Below the pieces are notes generated by a model that ran no database searches, was not told the origin of the DNA, and saw only the letters and a program-made list of their open reading frames with translations. From the NCBI RefSeq assembly GCF_000025725.1, contig NC_013943.1, forward strand, positions 1,240,001 to 1,304,000: DNA of 64,000 bases. The letters run 5' to 3'. This document shows positions 55,218 to 61,931 of the stretch, one piece after another (position 1 is the stretch's first letter; every line of letters starts with the position of its first letter). The stretch is from Denitrovibrio acetiphilus DSM 12809 (GTDB taxonomy: Bacteria > Chrysiogenota > Deferribacteres > Deferribacterales > Geovibrionaceae). The translations under genes were made by a program, and so were the position numbers.

Positions 55218-55249
55218 TAAAAAAGGGAGCTTTCGGGCTCCCTTTTTTT
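55218..55249. terminator. Bidirectional terminator after the isc-like operon
   Basis: AAAGGGAGC pairs with GCTCCCTTT around a six-base loop, with A-run on the left and seven T on the right. It separates the nfu gene from the convergent CBS gene. Confidence 0.9.
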
Positions 55250-55258
55250 GTTATAAAA

Positions 55259-55672
55259 TTACTTATTAAGAAGTGCTTTCAAAATATCGCCAAGTGTAAC
55301 AAGACCTATAAGGTGCCCGGCATCGTCTACCACAGGGAGTCTGTGACGGAATTTTTCCAGTACGATACGGGCCGCTTCTGTAACATTAGTATCAGCTTTG
55401 ATACTGTACGCAGGGATTTCCATAACGCGTTTGATAGGCTCACTTGTGAGCTCTCTTACGTCTACCAGTGGTATATACTGGGCTTCGTTCAGAATGTCGG
55501 GGAGTGCTTTTGCGACATCTGTTTCGCTGAATGTGGCAAGAACCTTATTGTTTTTGTCCACAACAGGCAGACCGGAAACATTTTTCTTCCTCATTTTGAG
55601 TATGACGTCTTTAATCGTCTCTTCCGGGTCAGCCGTAATCAAATTGGTTGTCATGATCTCAGATACTTTCAT
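55259..55672 (-). CDS. CBS-domain protein
   Basis: A 137-residue protein made of two CBS repeats (about 7-60 and 77-133), e.g. SGLPVVDKNNKVLATFSETDVAKAL and HRLPVVDDAGHLIGLVTLGDI. CBS pairs bind adenine nucleotides and sense energy state. It is the last gene of the minus-strand symporter operon, 17 bases after the acetyl-CoA-synthetase-like gene, with AGGAG in front. The same operon carries another CBS pair in the DUF294 protein. Confidence 0.9.
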   Translation of the reverse strand: MKVSEIMTTNLITADPEETIKDVILKMRKKNVSGLPVVDKNNKVLATFSETDVAKALPDILNEAQYIPLVDVRELTSEPIKRVMEIPAYSIKADTNVTEAARIVLEKFRHRLPVVDDAGHLIGLVTLGDILKALLNK

Positions 55673-55689: not shown

Positions 55690-57576
55690 TTACATCTGCA
55701 TTGCGATCTCTTTCAAAAGGTCGCGCAGTATAGCTCCATCTGGTGATTTAGGGATTGTTCTGGAGAATCTGATTTCTCCTGGGAGTGCAACTTCGCCTAT
55801 TTCATCCAGTATTGTTTCTCTTATTTCACGCACGGTCTGGTCATAATAGCTTTCATCAAGCTGCTTATGGAGCACACAGAAAGCTATGAGTTTTTCACCC
55901 CGTTTTTCATCATTGATGTTAATAACGGCGCATTCTTTGACCTTTTCGTATTTTTTAATAGCCTCTTCAATCTGGACAAGGCTGATTCTTTTGCCGCCTA
56001 TGTGCAACACGTCATCTAGCCTTCCGGTTAAGACCATAAATCCGTTCTCATTCAGTTTCCCACCGTCACCTGTACTGAAATAATAGCTGTCGTCAACTTG
56101 CTTCCAGTAAATCTTTTCAAAAGTTCCCGGCTGGTTGTGAATACCGGTGCAGAGTGCGGGGAATGGAGATTTTAGTACAATTTCACCCTGTTTGTCATTA
56201 TCAGAAATAAAATTCTTTGTTGTTTTGTCAAAAAGTACAGCAGGAACAGAGGGTAAACGCTCTGAAACAGTTCCGTACTCAAGCTTGCCATAGCCTGGTA
56301 GGGCTGCAAATATAGCTCCGCCGGCTTCTGTAAGTGAATATATGTCAATAAAAGCAGCTTTATTTTTACAAAGCTTGGCAGATGCCCATTCCAGAATTTC
56401 TTCGGGGAGTTTTTCACCGCCTGTCGCAATTAGCTCCAGTGTTTTAATGTCGCTGAATATCTTTTTTTTCTGTGCCGCATTCATCAGTGATCTAAGCATA
56501 GCTGGAGTGGTGTATAGTTTATTAACGCTGAATTTATCACAAATTTCATAGAACTTTGCTGCATTGTCAGAGTCAATTGAGTCCTCATGTATAAGAACAG
56601 TCTGACCAGCCATAAGCGGACCATAGACAAGATATGAGTGACCTGTTATCCATGATATGTCCGCAGTGCACCAGAATGTATCAGTTTCCTTCATGTCGAA
56701 AAGCATCAGATAAGAAACATATGCCCAGAGCAGATAACCTGCGTAGCTGTAGGTGAGAGCTTTAGGTTCCGCCATATTGGTAGATGTATAGAGCATAAAC
56801 ATTGTGTCATCGGCATTGTGCGGTTCATAGGGGAGGGTGTTTGCATTAGAGTGTTTTTCGTCAGATATAAGGTCGTGATACCATAGATCCCGCAGAGGCT
56901 TCATGTGTACCCGTTTCCTTGTCCTTTCAACAACCACACAATATTTTGGCTCAAAGGTGGCTTTAGAAAGAGCATTATCAAGCTTTTCTTTCATCTTTAT
57001 GTAACCACCGGTTATGGATTCGTCTGTGGTTACAATTATACATGGTTTACAGTCGTTAATGCGTTCTGCCAGTGATTCTGAAGAATAGCTTGCGTGGTAG
57101 ACAACGTGAACGGCACCCAGCTTAGTGCATGCCAGCATAAATATAACAAGTTCAGGCATGTTCGGCATATGGAGCAGAACCCGGTCACCTTGCTTGACAC
57201 CAAGTTTCCGCAGTGCTGCTGAGGTTTTTACTACATCGGAAAATAACGACTGATAAGTATAAACACGCTGCATTCCGTCAGCTCCTATCCATATGAGAGC
57301 TGCTTTATTTTTTTTGGCAGTGGTAAGGTGTTTACGCAGGATATTTTTGAGCGGACACAGCGTACCGCCTTTGAAAAACGTATAGCCGGAAGTTTCGTCC
57401 CCTGTCATGACAGTTTTAAACGGTTCATCCCAAAGGAGATATTTTTCTGCTAAGTATTTGTAAGATTCTTCATAGTTTTCGCCAAAAGAATTTATCTTGT
57501 CAATTTCCTCTTTTGGAAGACTAATTCTTTCAAATTCTCTGAAGTTTCTCTCAAGTTCTTTCAAGTATAAGCTCAT
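55690..57576 (-). CDS. Acetyl-CoA synthetase-like protein with degraded active site
   Basis: A 628-residue protein of the Acs/AMP-ligase fold, recognisable by the length, LLHMPNMPELVIFMLACTKLG, WCTADISWITGHSYLVYGPL, and STGDGGKLNENGFMVLTGRLDD. Two key sites are lost. The phosphate loop, YTSGSTGxPKG in Acs, reads YTSTNMAEPKA (263-273). The catalytic lysine of the C-terminal SGK motif is missing: SPDGAILRDLL (Ala615 in its place). Adenylation of acetate is therefore doubtful. It sits between a cNMP/CBS/DUF294 regulator and a CBS protein in the symporter operon, hinting at a sensory or binding role. Confidence 0.85.
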   Translation of the reverse strand: MSLYLKELERNFREFERISLPKEEIDKINSFGENYEESYKYLAEKYLLWDEPFKTVMTGDETSGYTFFKGGTLCPLKNILRKHLTTAKKNKAALIWIGADGMQRVYTYQSLFSDVVKTSAALRKLGVKQGDRVLLHMPNMPELVIFMLACTKLGAVHVVYHASYSSESLAERINDCKPCIIVTTDESITGGYIKMKEKLDNALSKATFEPKYCVVVERTRKRVHMKPLRDLWYHDLISDEKHSNANTLPYEPHNADDTMFMLYTSTNMAEPKALTYSYAGYLLWAYVSYLMLFDMKETDTFWCTADISWITGHSYLVYGPLMAGQTVLIHEDSIDSDNAAKFYEICDKFSVNKLYTTPAMLRSLMNAAQKKKIFSDIKTLELIATGGEKLPEEILEWASAKLCKNKAAFIDIYSLTEAGGAIFAALPGYGKLEYGTVSERLPSVPAVLFDKTTKNFISDNDKQGEIVLKSPFPALCTGIHNQPGTFEKIYWKQVDDSYYFSTGDGGKLNENGFMVLTGRLDDVLHIGGKRISLVQIEEAIKKYEKVKECAVININDEKRGEKLIAFCVLHKQLDESYYDQTVREIRETILDEIGEVALPGEIRFSRTIPKSPDGAILRDLLKEIAMQM

Positions 57577-57677: not shown

Positions 57678-59567
57678 CTAAAAAGGCGATCCGCTGAAGT
57701 ATCTGAGTCCGCTGTTTAAAAACTTTGATATGTGGTTCAGGGCATTTTTTAATCTCTCCTGGTTATAGAGAGATAATTTATGTGGATTAACAAATTTATG
57801 CTGTTTTTCGCCTTCTTTTGCCAGAGCTATCTGACTGTTTAATATTATATCCGTCACAATTTCGTAAGCGTGTATCATATTGCTGACAGTTTCTTCTGCC
57901 AGAGTCCCTTGTCTGCCCAGATGTTTCAGCCTCTCAATGGTGTTTAGGTCGCCGAAGGATTTGCTCAGGGTGAAGCATCTGGTGACATCCACGATGAATG
58001 ACAGAGCAGCACGTTTCAGGTTTATTAAACCTTTATATTCTCCTTCTTTTTCAACCACAAACTTTCCGAACAGAGATATAGGTATTTTGAGGTTAGCATC
58101 TGCCTGAAGGGTTTGTAGTAAAAACACCGGTCTCTGTGCTGTTTTAAAAAGGATAAACTGTTTTAGCTCCATGGCAAGTTCAGGTGTCCCTGCCAGCAGT
58201 GCAACGTCAAATGTTATAGAAGACCATCTGAGCCCCTTTTCGCCCGGGTTATCGACCCAGCCGCTGATAAGTTTTTTCCATTCAGATATAGTGTTCTGCA
58301 TTTCAGGGTTTGTAACCATCACATCCCCTTTACAATACTCATATCCTACGAAGTCAAGGTTATCCGAGAGTTTTTTAGCGAAAGCGACAAGATGTCCTTT
58401 GTCTTCTTCCGTTATGTCGTCAGGGAACACAAAGCCGTTGTCCTGGTCAGGGTCAAGCATTGCCTCTTTTCTAGCGACGCTGCCCATAACAATTACGGCA
58501 TGTTTTATCAGACGGATATCTTTTCCGGTTTCTTTCAGGTAGTTGTCAGAGGTAATGCTGTATATACGTTTTTGAATTTCAATATGCATGGATGTCAGGA
58601 CGGGGAGAATCTGACTTGTCAGTTTCGAATTGTTCATCATCTGTTCTGCAATGGTATAAAGCCCGATATGGACTTCTTGAAGTCTTTCGAGTGAGTTGGT
58701 TTCGTTTATATCTATCCCGTATATACTTGCGTCACTGAAAAGTATGCGCAGTATATCCTTACCGGAGATTATTCCCACCGGCTCGCTGTTTCGGACAACA
58801 ACTGCATAGTCCTCATCCTGCTTCTGCATTTCAGACAGGGCGTTGACAAGTGGGTGTTCCGGTGAGAGGTGCACTGGGTTGGGAGTCATATAGTCTTTAA
58901 CATCTGTGCATACGATATCGCAGGAACCATCATTGAAAAGCCTGTATATGACAGATTTTGCCGTGATGACTCCTATGAAACGGTTGTGTTCGCATGTGAC
59001 AACCACAGAGCCTATTTTATGACGTGACATAAGCACGGCTGCGTCTTTTATATTGTCGTCCTCTTTTACTGTCATTACAGGAGACATCATGTATGTTCCC
59101 ACAGACTTAAATGTTGAATGCAGGATAGAATCTGTCTTACTGCCTGAAAGTCCGTTTATACGGGCGAATATAAGCTTCTGCAGCTTCTCTTTAAAGTTAG
59201 CGTAGTCGCTCATCAGTTTGTATATGCATGTTTCAGGGAAAAATATCAGTGAGCACCCTTCGGCACATTTAGCTGTGACAGAATATCTGGATTTTGCAAG
59301 AAAAGTTGAAAGCCCTATTAAGTCGCCTGTGCCGATGGTCAGGCTTGAACCACTGTCGTCAGAATCAAGGAGGACTTTACCATCCAGAAGAAGATAAAGC
59401 CCTTTGTGATATTGATCATTTTTATAAAAAATAACATCTTCATTTTCAAGTTCCACCAGAGAAGAGTTGCTGGTGAGTATTTCGAGTCTTTCAGAGTCCA
59501 CCCCCTGAAATAGATAAAAACGTGTTAGAATTTTGATTATTTCGGATGTGAGCATATCACTCTTCAC
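57678..59567 (-). CDS. Cyclic-nucleotide-binding, CBS and DUF294 nucleotidyltransferase-like protein
   Basis: A 629-residue soluble regulator with four parts: cNMP-binding-like domain (about 10-145, GLYLLLDGKVLL), two CBS repeats (about 165-290), a GlnD-like nucleotidyltransferase domain with GSVARKEAMLDPDQDNGFVF (near 353-372), and the C-terminal DUF294 part. Such proteins recur beside VC_2705-type symporters, as here. The nucleotidyltransferase G-S and D-x-D residues appear kept. Start GTG 59567 overlaps the small membrane gene by 11 bases; ATG 59555 is an alternative. Confidence 0.9.
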   Translation of the reverse strand: MKSDMLTSEIIKILTRFYLFQGVDSERLEILTSNSSLVELENEDVIFYKNDQYHKGLYLLLDGKVLLDSDDSGSSLTIGTGDLIGLSTFLAKSRYSVTAKCAEGCSLIFFPETCIYKLMSDYANFKEKLQKLIFARINGLSGSKTDSILHSTFKSVGTYMMSPVMTVKEDDNIKDAAVLMSRHKIGSVVVTCEHNRFIGVITAKSVIYRLFNDGSCDIVCTDVKDYMTPNPVHLSPEHPLVNALSEMQKQDEDYAVVVRNSEPVGIISGKDILRILFSDASIYGIDINETNSLERLQEVHIGLYTIAEQMMNNSKLTSQILPVLTSMHIEIQKRIYSITSDNYLKETGKDIRLIKHAVIVMGSVARKEAMLDPDQDNGFVFPDDITEEDKGHLVAFAKKLSDNLDFVGYEYCKGDVMVTNPEMQNTISEWKKLISGWVDNPGEKGLRWSSITFDVALLAGTPELAMELKQFILFKTAQRPVFLLQTLQADANLKIPISLFGKFVVEKEGEYKGLINLKRAALSFIVDVTRCFTLSKSFGDLNTIERLKHLGRQGTLAEETVSNMIHAYEIVTDIILNSQIALAKEGEKQHKFVNPHKLSLYNQERLKNALNHISKFLNSGLRYFSGSPF

Positions 59568-59812: not shown

Positions 59813-59840
59813 AGTGGAGCAGGTGTTTTAGACCTGCCCC
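59813..59840 (-). terminator. Attenuator-like hairpin after the symporter gene
   Basis: On the minus strand GGGGCAGGT and ACCTGCTCC pair around a seven-base loop, followed by ACTCTTTTC. The tail is only moderately T-rich; it would lower expression of the regulator genes relative to the symporter. Confidence 0.5.
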
Positions 59841-59873: not shown

Positions 59874-61520
59874 TTAGTCTATTATATTATGCATTACTTT
59901 AAGAACTTTGTTGCCTTCTTCGATATCTTTTGCTGTCATGCTCGCCGCAGTCATGTTCGATACCACAATATTAGTGATAAAGTTCAGCGGAGCAAGAATC
60001 AGAGCTGAAGATGTAGCCGGCATAATGCCTGTTGCGCCAAAGAATTCAACGTTATTTATCCAACCTACCATAGAAACAACAGCACCTATGAGACCGACAA
60101 GCATACCTGCCATTGCACCATACTTGTTTGACTTACCATACCATACCCCTAGAACTATTGCAGGGAATATAGCAGAACCTGCAATAGCAAACGCCATGGC
60201 AACTATCTGAGCGATAAGAGCTGGTGGTTTGAGTGCGGTTATGATGACACAGCATACGAGAACTGCTGTAAAGATACGGGCAGCCATAAGCTTCTCCTGC
60301 TCTGATGAGTCAGGGCGGAAGATTGTTGCGTACCAGTCGTGTGCGATAGCAGCGGCACCGGCAACCATAAGTCCTGCAACCGTGGAGAGACCGGCAGCCA
60401 GAGCACCGGAAGCAAGGTAACCCATGAAGAACAGTCCGAGACCAGCTCTTTCCGGTGCTGACAGTATGATAACGTCAGCGACGGCTTTACCGCCAGCCGG
60501 GTTGAAGAACTGACCAAGAGCTGCATAAGCAGGTGACGACCAGTACAGGATACCTATAAAGAACAGACCGTATACAACAGATTTTCTTGCGACATCTTCG
60601 TCTGTAACTGTATAGAAACGTACGAGGATGTGAGGCAGACCTGCTGTACCCACCATCAGCGTGAACGCAAGGGCGAAAAACTGATAGAATGTTCCGTTTG
60701 CCCATGGGGCTGTATAGTTTGCTGCCCAGTGAGCGCCTTCGCCTGTTGCTGTTGCAGCATTTGATATTATTGCACCGTATTCAATCTGCGGGAGTATTCC
60801 AGGTGTTCCGATCTGTGCGCCGTATTTGGCAAAGATGATAAACAGCGGAAGGAGGAAACCCGTGATAAGAACCACATATTGGATCTGTTGATTCTTTGTA
60901 ACTCCTTTTTGTCCTGACATGAGCATGTAAACAAGCACGATGCCCGCAGCAAAGAATACTGAACCTACATAGTTCATGCCGAATATCCAGCCGGAGATCA
61001 GTGCGATACCTTTGAACTGAGCTGTTGAGTAAGTTATAGCTATGATAACTGTAACAACTGCTGTGATCATTCTGATACCGTGAGAGTTATATCTGTCTCC
61101 GAGGAACTCGGGGATGGTGTATTTGCCGAAACGGCGCAGCTGTGAAGCTGTCAGTGTCAAGAGCAGAACATACCCGCCTGTCCAGCCGATAATATAGCCA
61201 AGTCCGAAAAAACCTTTGAGATAAAGCAGACCAGCAACACCCATAAAGGATGCAGCAGACATCCAGTCGGATGCAATCGCCATTCCGTTACCTACTGCGC
61301 CGATGTTACGCTCGGCAACCCAGTAGCCTTCGGTAGTTTTTACTTTCATCATCCAGCCTACTGTAAGGTAAAGACCTATGAAGGCTATCATGATGATTGC
61401 AGGCAGAAGTTTAAAACCTTTTTCAAGCTGAAAGAGCTCTTCGCCGGCAGCTGCATATGCGCCGCTGAAGGAGCCAATGACTAAAACGAGTGTAAAAAAC
61501 ATTTTCGTGTATTTGTTCAT
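59874..61520 (-). CDS. Sodium/solute symporter, VC_2705-type (acetate-permease-like)
   Basis: A 548-residue SSF-family transporter with about 13 transmembrane helices. After an apparent cleavable N-terminus (SFSGAYAAAGEE), it shows EGYWVAERNIGAVGNGMAIASDWMSAASFMG and ASGALAAGLSTVAGLMV, both characteristic of the ActP-like subfamily that pairs with a DUF4212 small subunit. Acetate or another short carboxylate is a likely substrate. It lies 11 bases after the DUF4212 gene, and shares the strong promoter at 61.9 kb. Strictly, specificity cannot be read from sequence. Confidence 0.9.
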   Translation of the reverse strand: MNKYTKMFFTLVLVIGSFSGAYAAAGEELFQLEKGFKLLPAIIMIAFIGLYLTVGWMMKVKTTEGYWVAERNIGAVGNGMAIASDWMSAASFMGVAGLLYLKGFFGLGYIIGWTGGYVLLLTLTASQLRRFGKYTIPEFLGDRYNSHGIRMITAVVTVIIAITYSTAQFKGIALISGWIFGMNYVGSVFFAAGIVLVYMLMSGQKGVTKNQQIQYVVLITGFLLPLFIIFAKYGAQIGTPGILPQIEYGAIISNAATATGEGAHWAANYTAPWANGTFYQFFALAFTLMVGTAGLPHILVRFYTVTDEDVARKSVVYGLFFIGILYWSSPAYAALGQFFNPAGGKAVADVIILSAPERAGLGLFFMGYLASGALAAGLSTVAGLMVAGAAAIAHDWYATIFRPDSSEQEKLMAARIFTAVLVCCVIITALKPPALIAQIVAMAFAIAGSAIFPAIVLGVWYGKSNKYGAMAGMLVGLIGAVVSMVGWINNVEFFGATGIMPATSSALILAPLNFITNIVVSNMTAASMTAKDIEEGNKVLKVMHNIID

Positions 61521-61530
61521 AGTGCGCTCC

Positions 61531-61833
61531 TTAATGCTCTGAATTCTTTACAAGTTTGTTCCACAGGATCACAAAGAAAAGACAAAGCAGAACAAAGCCG
61601 ACAGTTGTCCCCTGAGCTACCAGCCAGTAGTGCAGAGGGAAACCAATAAATGTTGCCTTGGTGAGCGGACCAATCCCTTGTGAGTCACCGGTAAGTTTCA
61701 AAAGTATTGGAGTTGTCATCCAGCAAAGAGCCCACAGCACGATGATGATCGATGCTGCCTTAACTTCAGCCTTAACGTGTGCACGTTTAGGGTTAAAAAA
61801 GCTGATGTCTAGCATTTTTTCTTTTTCGGTCAT
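61531..61833 (-). CDS. Symporter small subunit (DUF4212)
   Basis: A 100-residue protein with two transmembrane helices: ASIIIVLWALCWMTTPILL (about 27-45) and LVAQGTTVGFVLLCLFFVIL (about 71-90), joined by FIGFPLHYWLVAQ. This is the DUF4212 partner of VC_2705-type sodium/solute symporters. GGAGG lies upstream of the ATG. It is the first gene of the operon and directly precedes the permease gene. Confidence 0.92.
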   Translation of the reverse strand: MTEKEKMLDISFFNPKRAHVKAEVKAASIIIVLWALCWMTTPILLKLTGDSQGIGPLTKATFIGFPLHYWLVAQGTTVGFVLLCLFFVILWNKLVKNSEH

Positions 61834-61901: not shown

Positions 61902-61931
61902 ATAATAATATGACGTTTTAAAATATGTCAA
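61902..61931 (-). promoter_or_regulatory. Strong sigma-70-type promoter of the symporter operon
   Basis: On the minus strand: perfect TTGACA (61926-61931), 18-base spacer, TATTAT (61902-61907, five of six). It is 69 bases ahead of the DUF4212 start codon and drives the whole operon down to the CBS gene. Confidence 0.75.

Follow-up and report, generated by a model that had tools for sequence, protein, structure and literature searches.

In enzymes related to acetyl-CoA synthetase (Acs), the adenylation half-reaction requires the A10 lysine and is lost upon its mutation, the second half-reaction (thioesterification) is mostly retained in such mutants, the Ser/Gly loop binds the beta and gamma phosphates and pyrophosphate, and the A8 residues make contacts to the ribose, provide the hinge and border the CoA tunnel (PMC11255334). 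Control of AcsA in Bacillus involves the Bateman protein AcuB, an AMP sensor that governs the deacetylase responsible for reactivating AcsA (PMC13121692). Also, a Marivivens plasmid carries a canonical acs in the arrangement acs-DUF4212-SSF-DUF294. Here we describe PAcs, an Acs-like protein from Denitrovibrio acetiphilus DSM 12809 that lacks the catalytic lysine and the Gly-rich phosphate loop. Its gene lies in a stretch of 64,000 nucleotides (NC_013943.1, positions 1,240,001 to 1,304,000; hereafter the window, in whose numbering unprefixed coordinates are given), on the minus strand in the order DUF4212, symporter, cNMP/CBS/DUF294, PAcs, CBS2, with gaps of 10, 306, 101 and 17 nt:

61902..61931, minus strand: sigma-70-like promoter TTGACA-18-TATTAT (11/12) upstream of the DUF4212 gene; consensus match only
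61531..61833, minus strand: DUF4212 symporter small subunit (TIGR03647 and PF13937 over cut-off)
59874..61520, minus strand: sodium:solute symporter (SSF), VC_2705 family (TIGR03648, 459 bits, over cut-off)
59816-59840, minus strand: weaker terminator-like hairpin in the symporter-DUF294 gap; consensus match
57678..59567, minus strand: protein with cNMP-binding, two CBS, DUF294 and DUF294_C domains (domain search)
55690..57576, minus strand: PAcs, 628 residues (ORF, TIGR02188, AF2 model, fold matches)
55259..55672, minus strand: CBS2, a 137-residue two-CBS (Bateman) protein (two PF00571 domains; co-occurrence; adjacency)
55219..55248, minus strand: intrinsic-terminator-like hairpin after CBS2; consensus match only

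An earlier sequence-only reading had placed these genes in one operon. In agreement, the DUF4212, SSF, DUF294 and two-CBS neighbours share the strand of PAcs and are bracketed by the promoter-like and terminator-like matches, the hairpin at 59816-59840 being a possible attenuation point. The same gene set surrounds the Acs-family gene of the Marivivens plasmid; since the plasmid has the canonical version, the association of Acs with symporter and DUF294 genes is ordinary, and the novelty of the D. acetiphilus locus lies in an Acs that appears to be a dead version; unlike the plasmid, this locus also has an added two-CBS protein.

Fold and active site of PAcs

The PAcs ORF is full-length and stop-free, as the sequence-only reading had stated. 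Its best family matches are acetate-CoA ligases and the closest solved structure by sequence is Salmonella Acs (E ~1e-102). The AF2 model (pLDDT 85.5, pTM 0.80) has the Acs fold with both the N- and the C-terminal domain, and in Foldseek searches its best matches were Acs structures over the whole length (E ~1e-64); confidence was lowest at the P-loop, the HMKP segment, the A8 loop, residues 556-559 and A10. PAcs thus resembles canonical Acs (Salmonella 1PG4 and 2P2F, ~31-34% identity) in length, fold, domain order, ribose/adenylate residues and hinge. Unlike canonical Acs, it lacks the A10 lysine, the Gly-rich phosphate loop and Arg191, its pocket is opened (V386G, W414S/T), its C-terminus is shortened, with a conserved QM end, and it scores below the family cut-off: D. 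acetiphilus PAcs reaches 521 bits against TIGR02188 (AcsA, acetate--CoA ligase), where the curated cut-off is 724.95, and falls outside the family, as do all PAcs (404-552 bits). The positions concerned, assigned by alignment to Salmonella Acs, are the following:

57010..57012, minus strand: T189, at the position of CoA-site Arg191, which is Arg in every canonical Acs aligned
56896..56907, minus strand: HMKP (residues 224-227), candidate new contact site; invariant in PAcs alignment A1, low model confidence
56758..56790, minus strand: A3 phosphate loop YTSTNMAEPKA (residues 263-273), in place of YTSGSTGKPKG
56419..56421, minus strand: G386, at the position of acetate-pocket Val386; Gly in 23/23 orthologues
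56335..56337, minus strand: S414, at the position of acetate-pocket Trp414; Ser or Thr in 23/23
55990..55992, minus strand: K529, in the A8 loop GKR, replacing the invariant His525 of canonical Acs; Lys in 23/23
55720..55752, minus strand: A10 motif PKSPDGAILRD (residues 609-619)
55732-55734, minus strand: codon of A615, at the position of the catalytic lysine K609

In Salmonella Acs, R191 belongs to the CoA site, and V386 and W414 to the acetate pocket. The two motif changes pointed out by the sequence-only reading, SPDGA and YTSTNMAEPKA, are both present in the translated ORF. We compared residues after realigning 23 PAcs, from five Deferribacterales families, with 14 canonical Acs, leaving out one wrong-frame row (L153). 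The canonical enzymes share 99 fixed positions, of which 20 have been lost throughout PAcs (R191, G266, K270, V386, H525, K609 and R613 among them) and 38 are kept in every PAcs, including T264, K272, T416, E417, D500, R515, D517 and G524. In the phosphate loop, G266 is replaced by Thr and K270 by Glu, Asp or Val in every sequence while T264 and K272 are retained, so that the loop reads T[STP]T[NAH]xx[EDV][PQ]K and departs from the canonical TSG[ST]TGxPKG. R613 is now Asp or Glu, the region 163-166 is replaced in all or nearly all PAcs, and P227 of HMKP is not present in the canonical Acs compared. Losses of R194 and R584 were dropped as evidence, as canonical Acs also vary there.

The catalytic lysine column contains Ala, Val, Ile, Gly, Glu, Ser, Thr or Asn, and never lysine. 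With these eight residue types it lies at the 96th percentile of variability among PAcs columns, and the flanking columns P603, K604, G608 and L615 are invariant; this high variability between invariant neighbours indicates that the position was released and not reassigned. The possibility that close homologues keep the lysine, and that the change is a local one, can be set aside: the losses are common to all orthologues, which rules out a local mutation or a sequencing error and makes the change ancient. That PAcs has lost both its A10 lysine and its Gly-rich pyrophosphate loop argues strongly against ATP-dependent adenylation of acetate, and the alignments strongly support catalytic incapacity, at least for adenylation. 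The changes at Arg191 and in the 163-166 region argue weakly against the use of CoA. In turn, T416, E417, D500, R515 and R526 (ribose, Mg and adenylate residues) are invariant in all PAcs, and the hinge D517 is also kept in all of them, which leaves room for an adenylate ligand, although these residues may be retained for the fold alone. V386G and W414S/T, found in every orthologue, should open the pocket to larger groups, so acetate or acetyl-AMP is doubtful as ligand; the pocket changes likewise argue against acetate itself being the preferred acyl group.

Distribution, selection and the CBS2 partner

Besides D. acetiphilus, 23 Deferribacterales genomes encode PAcs orthologues (46-79% identity), and the 24 genomes together represent five families; no orthologue was found in the remaining Deferribacterales families sampled, nor outside the order when ~85,000 species genomes were scanned for two peptide patterns specific to the family, a search limited by those patterns. 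PAcs forms one clade in a tree that took in one wrong-frame outgroup row (L153), its stem support being indicative only. The dN/dS ratio is ~0.03-0.05 in most close pairs and 0.11 in the very closest, comparable to the neighbouring nifS and coaX; such values exclude decay, and with it the possibility of a pseudogene. The gene is intact in 23 of the 24 genomes. In genome G005, PAcs (L048, G005:C4:312448-314332) has a frameshift near codon 505-510, either a sequencing error or a recent loss, and His at the position of K272 of the loop. With catalytic residues lost under purifying selection, as defines a pseudoenzyme, the sequences support well that PAcs is a selected, conserved pseudoenzyme. A literature keyword search for pseudoenzymes in this family, in one library and with narrow terms, gave nothing on Acs.

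The description of PAcs as a paralogue does not hold, because D. acetiphilus has no other Acs-clade gene (the next-best TIGR02188 match scores 168.9 bits). Moreover, no Acs above the TIGR02188 or PRK04319 cut-offs was found in any PAcs-bearing genome, which rules out a paralogue beside a working Acs; some of these genomes encode a short-type Acs relative of 547-613 residues, also below the cut-off. Among the relatives, only G015 has an Acs that exceeds the cut-off, and it has neither PAcs nor CBS2. The Acs-type genes of this genome (L145:79-2043 and L146:2976-5027; one Deferribacterales family) have the lysine and the phosphate loop intact.

Acetate can be activated by other routes in these organisms. 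D. acetiphilus encodes a ScpC-type succinyl-CoA:acetate CoA-transferase (570.7 bits, cut-off 500) as well as Pta and AckA, and genes for acetate kinase and for members of the CoA-transferase family are widespread across Deferribacterales. A TCA cycle with a CoA-transferase was proposed for a member of the same phylum (PMC9768450). In Deferribacter autotrophicus, acetate activation was assigned to two acetyl-CoA synthetase genes and Pta-AckA (PMC6896113); one of the genes FHQ18_05360 and FHQ18_07465 may be that of PAcs.

The constant gene partner of PAcs is CBS2, and not the symporter/DUF294 module. In 21 of the 24 genomes the CBS2 gene immediately follows PAcs on the same strand, and in the remaining three it is found no more than 7 kb away; it is present in 24/24 genomes with PAcs vs 1/37 without (Fisher p 4e-16, relatedness ignored), although shared ancestry inflates both the linkage and the co-occurrence and neither proves contact. 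The exception, in genome G022 (64% complete), is a CBS2 orthologue of 47% identity (L144:8001-8426) which adjoins an enoyl-CoA hydratase-like gene, with no PAcs detected. The symporter/DUF294 module is near PAcs in 11/24 genomes and its type varies even within the genus; elsewhere in Deferribacterales, PAcs and CBS2 occur without transporter genes. In this sense, the proposal of a ligand-sensing pseudoenzyme for acetate uptake is partly supported: the selected, conserved pseudoenzyme stands, and homologues with the same losses do occur beside a symporter in those 11 genomes and not in the others, which gives weak support to a control of uptake when compared with a CBS2 linked in all 24. Other neighbours were also observed. 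A DUF169 (PF02596) gene, absent from the Denitrovibrio window, adjoins the CBS2 gene at L050:10567-11316 (family f3), L055:10342-11097 (f8) and L057:1763-2512 (f7), and is a possible further member of the module; in f3 genomes a 2-oxoacid:ferredoxin oxidoreductase-like gene pair precedes PAcs (L050:5102-7671).

By sequence search, the relatives of CBS2 with known structures include MJ1225, AMPK gamma and the Bateman domain of AcuB. AMPK gamma and MJ1225-type CBS proteins are among its best solved relatives; nucleotide binding by CBS2 is putative. As in the Bacillus AcuB-AcuC-AcsA system (PMC13121692, PMC13039410), a Bateman-domain protein is encoded beside an Acs-family gene, and CBS2 resembles the Bateman half of AcuB (1.8e-17). 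Unlike AcuB, CBS2 has only CBS domains in its 137 residues, without the C-terminal ACT domain through which AcuB binds AcuC, and acetylation of an A10 lysine is impossible in PAcs, where this residue is missing; the AcuB-AcuC circuit therefore cannot operate on PAcs. By analogy, PAcs and CBS2 may work like the AcuB axis without being a member of it.

Proposed role of PAcs and alternative explanations

In our view, PAcs probably has a regulatory function, and its database annotation as an enzyme would be an error. Our main reading, to which we give a probability of roughly 0.55, is that it is a pseudo-Acs with an adenylate-type ligand, acting together with CBS2 as an energy or metabolite sensor; the ligand, the complex of both proteins and its target are what we infer. 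An Acs-family protein of these bacteria would have turned into a pseudoenzyme keeping the fold, the ribose/adenylate residues and the hinge. With its widened acyl pocket it may bind AMP, an acyl-AMP or a larger adenosine-bearing metabolite, and binding would change its domain orientation. This state would be passed to, or received from, CBS2 by protein contact, CBS2 itself perhaps reading adenine nucleotides. In bacteria using CoA-transferase and Pta-AckA for acetate activation, the two proteins together might adjust acetate metabolism, with uptake as one possible target in those genomes that have the symporter and DUF294 genes linked to PAcs. In a more specific form that we put forward only tentatively, PAcs would read acyl-adenylate or AMP and CBS2 adenine nucleotides, and this two-protein sensor would control CoA-transferase-based acetate oxidation across Deferribacterales.

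The alternatives differ in how much of the Acs chemistry they keep. PAcs might still be catalytic without the A10 lysine, for example forming or hydrolyzing a thioester on acyl-AMP made elsewhere, with a larger acyl group and perhaps through K529. Partial activity on a supplied acyl-AMP is possible because related enzymes mutated in the A10 lysine still perform the second half-reaction to a large extent (PMC11255334), and the fixation of K529, V386G and W414S/T together with the retained hinge D517 and tunnel Gly524 would suit such a role; we nevertheless regard it as doubtful, as the CoA-site R191 and the 163-166 region are replaced, no source of free acyl-AMP is known and the lysine column, rather than having settled on a new residue, is free to vary. 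Rather unlikely, in our opinion, is that PAcs has no small-molecule ligand and only holds together CBS2 and, where linked, the transporter or the DUF294 protein: the fixed surface motif HMKP, the shortened C-terminus with its QM end and the constancy of CBS2 are consistent with a scaffold, but the five invariant ribose, Mg and adenylate residues exceed what a scaffold is expected to need.

Automatic annotation would make PAcs a still functional acetyl-CoA synthetase whose motifs are unusual, which seems improbable. The full-length Acs fold, the acetate-CoA ligase matches and the acetyl-CoA synthetases listed for acetate activation in D. autotrophicus, in a study that does not establish their identity with PAcs (PMC6896113), speak for it; a score of 521 of 725 bits, under the equivalog cut-off, the absence of the A10 lysine, the P-loop glycine and Arg191 from all PAcs and the presence of other acetate-activating genes speak against it. 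We give hardly any credence to a decaying acs relic with no function left, to which the lost active-site residues and the frameshift in G005 could be ascribed, given the low dN/dS in most close pairs, the intact gene across five families and the conserved partner.

If the main reading is true, the central metabolic family of Acs would include an order-wide pseudoenzyme that, in an acetate specialist and related bacteria, is accompanied by a nearly obligate partner. In addition, Acs-based acetate activation in Deferribacterales may be misassigned when it is inferred from annotation.
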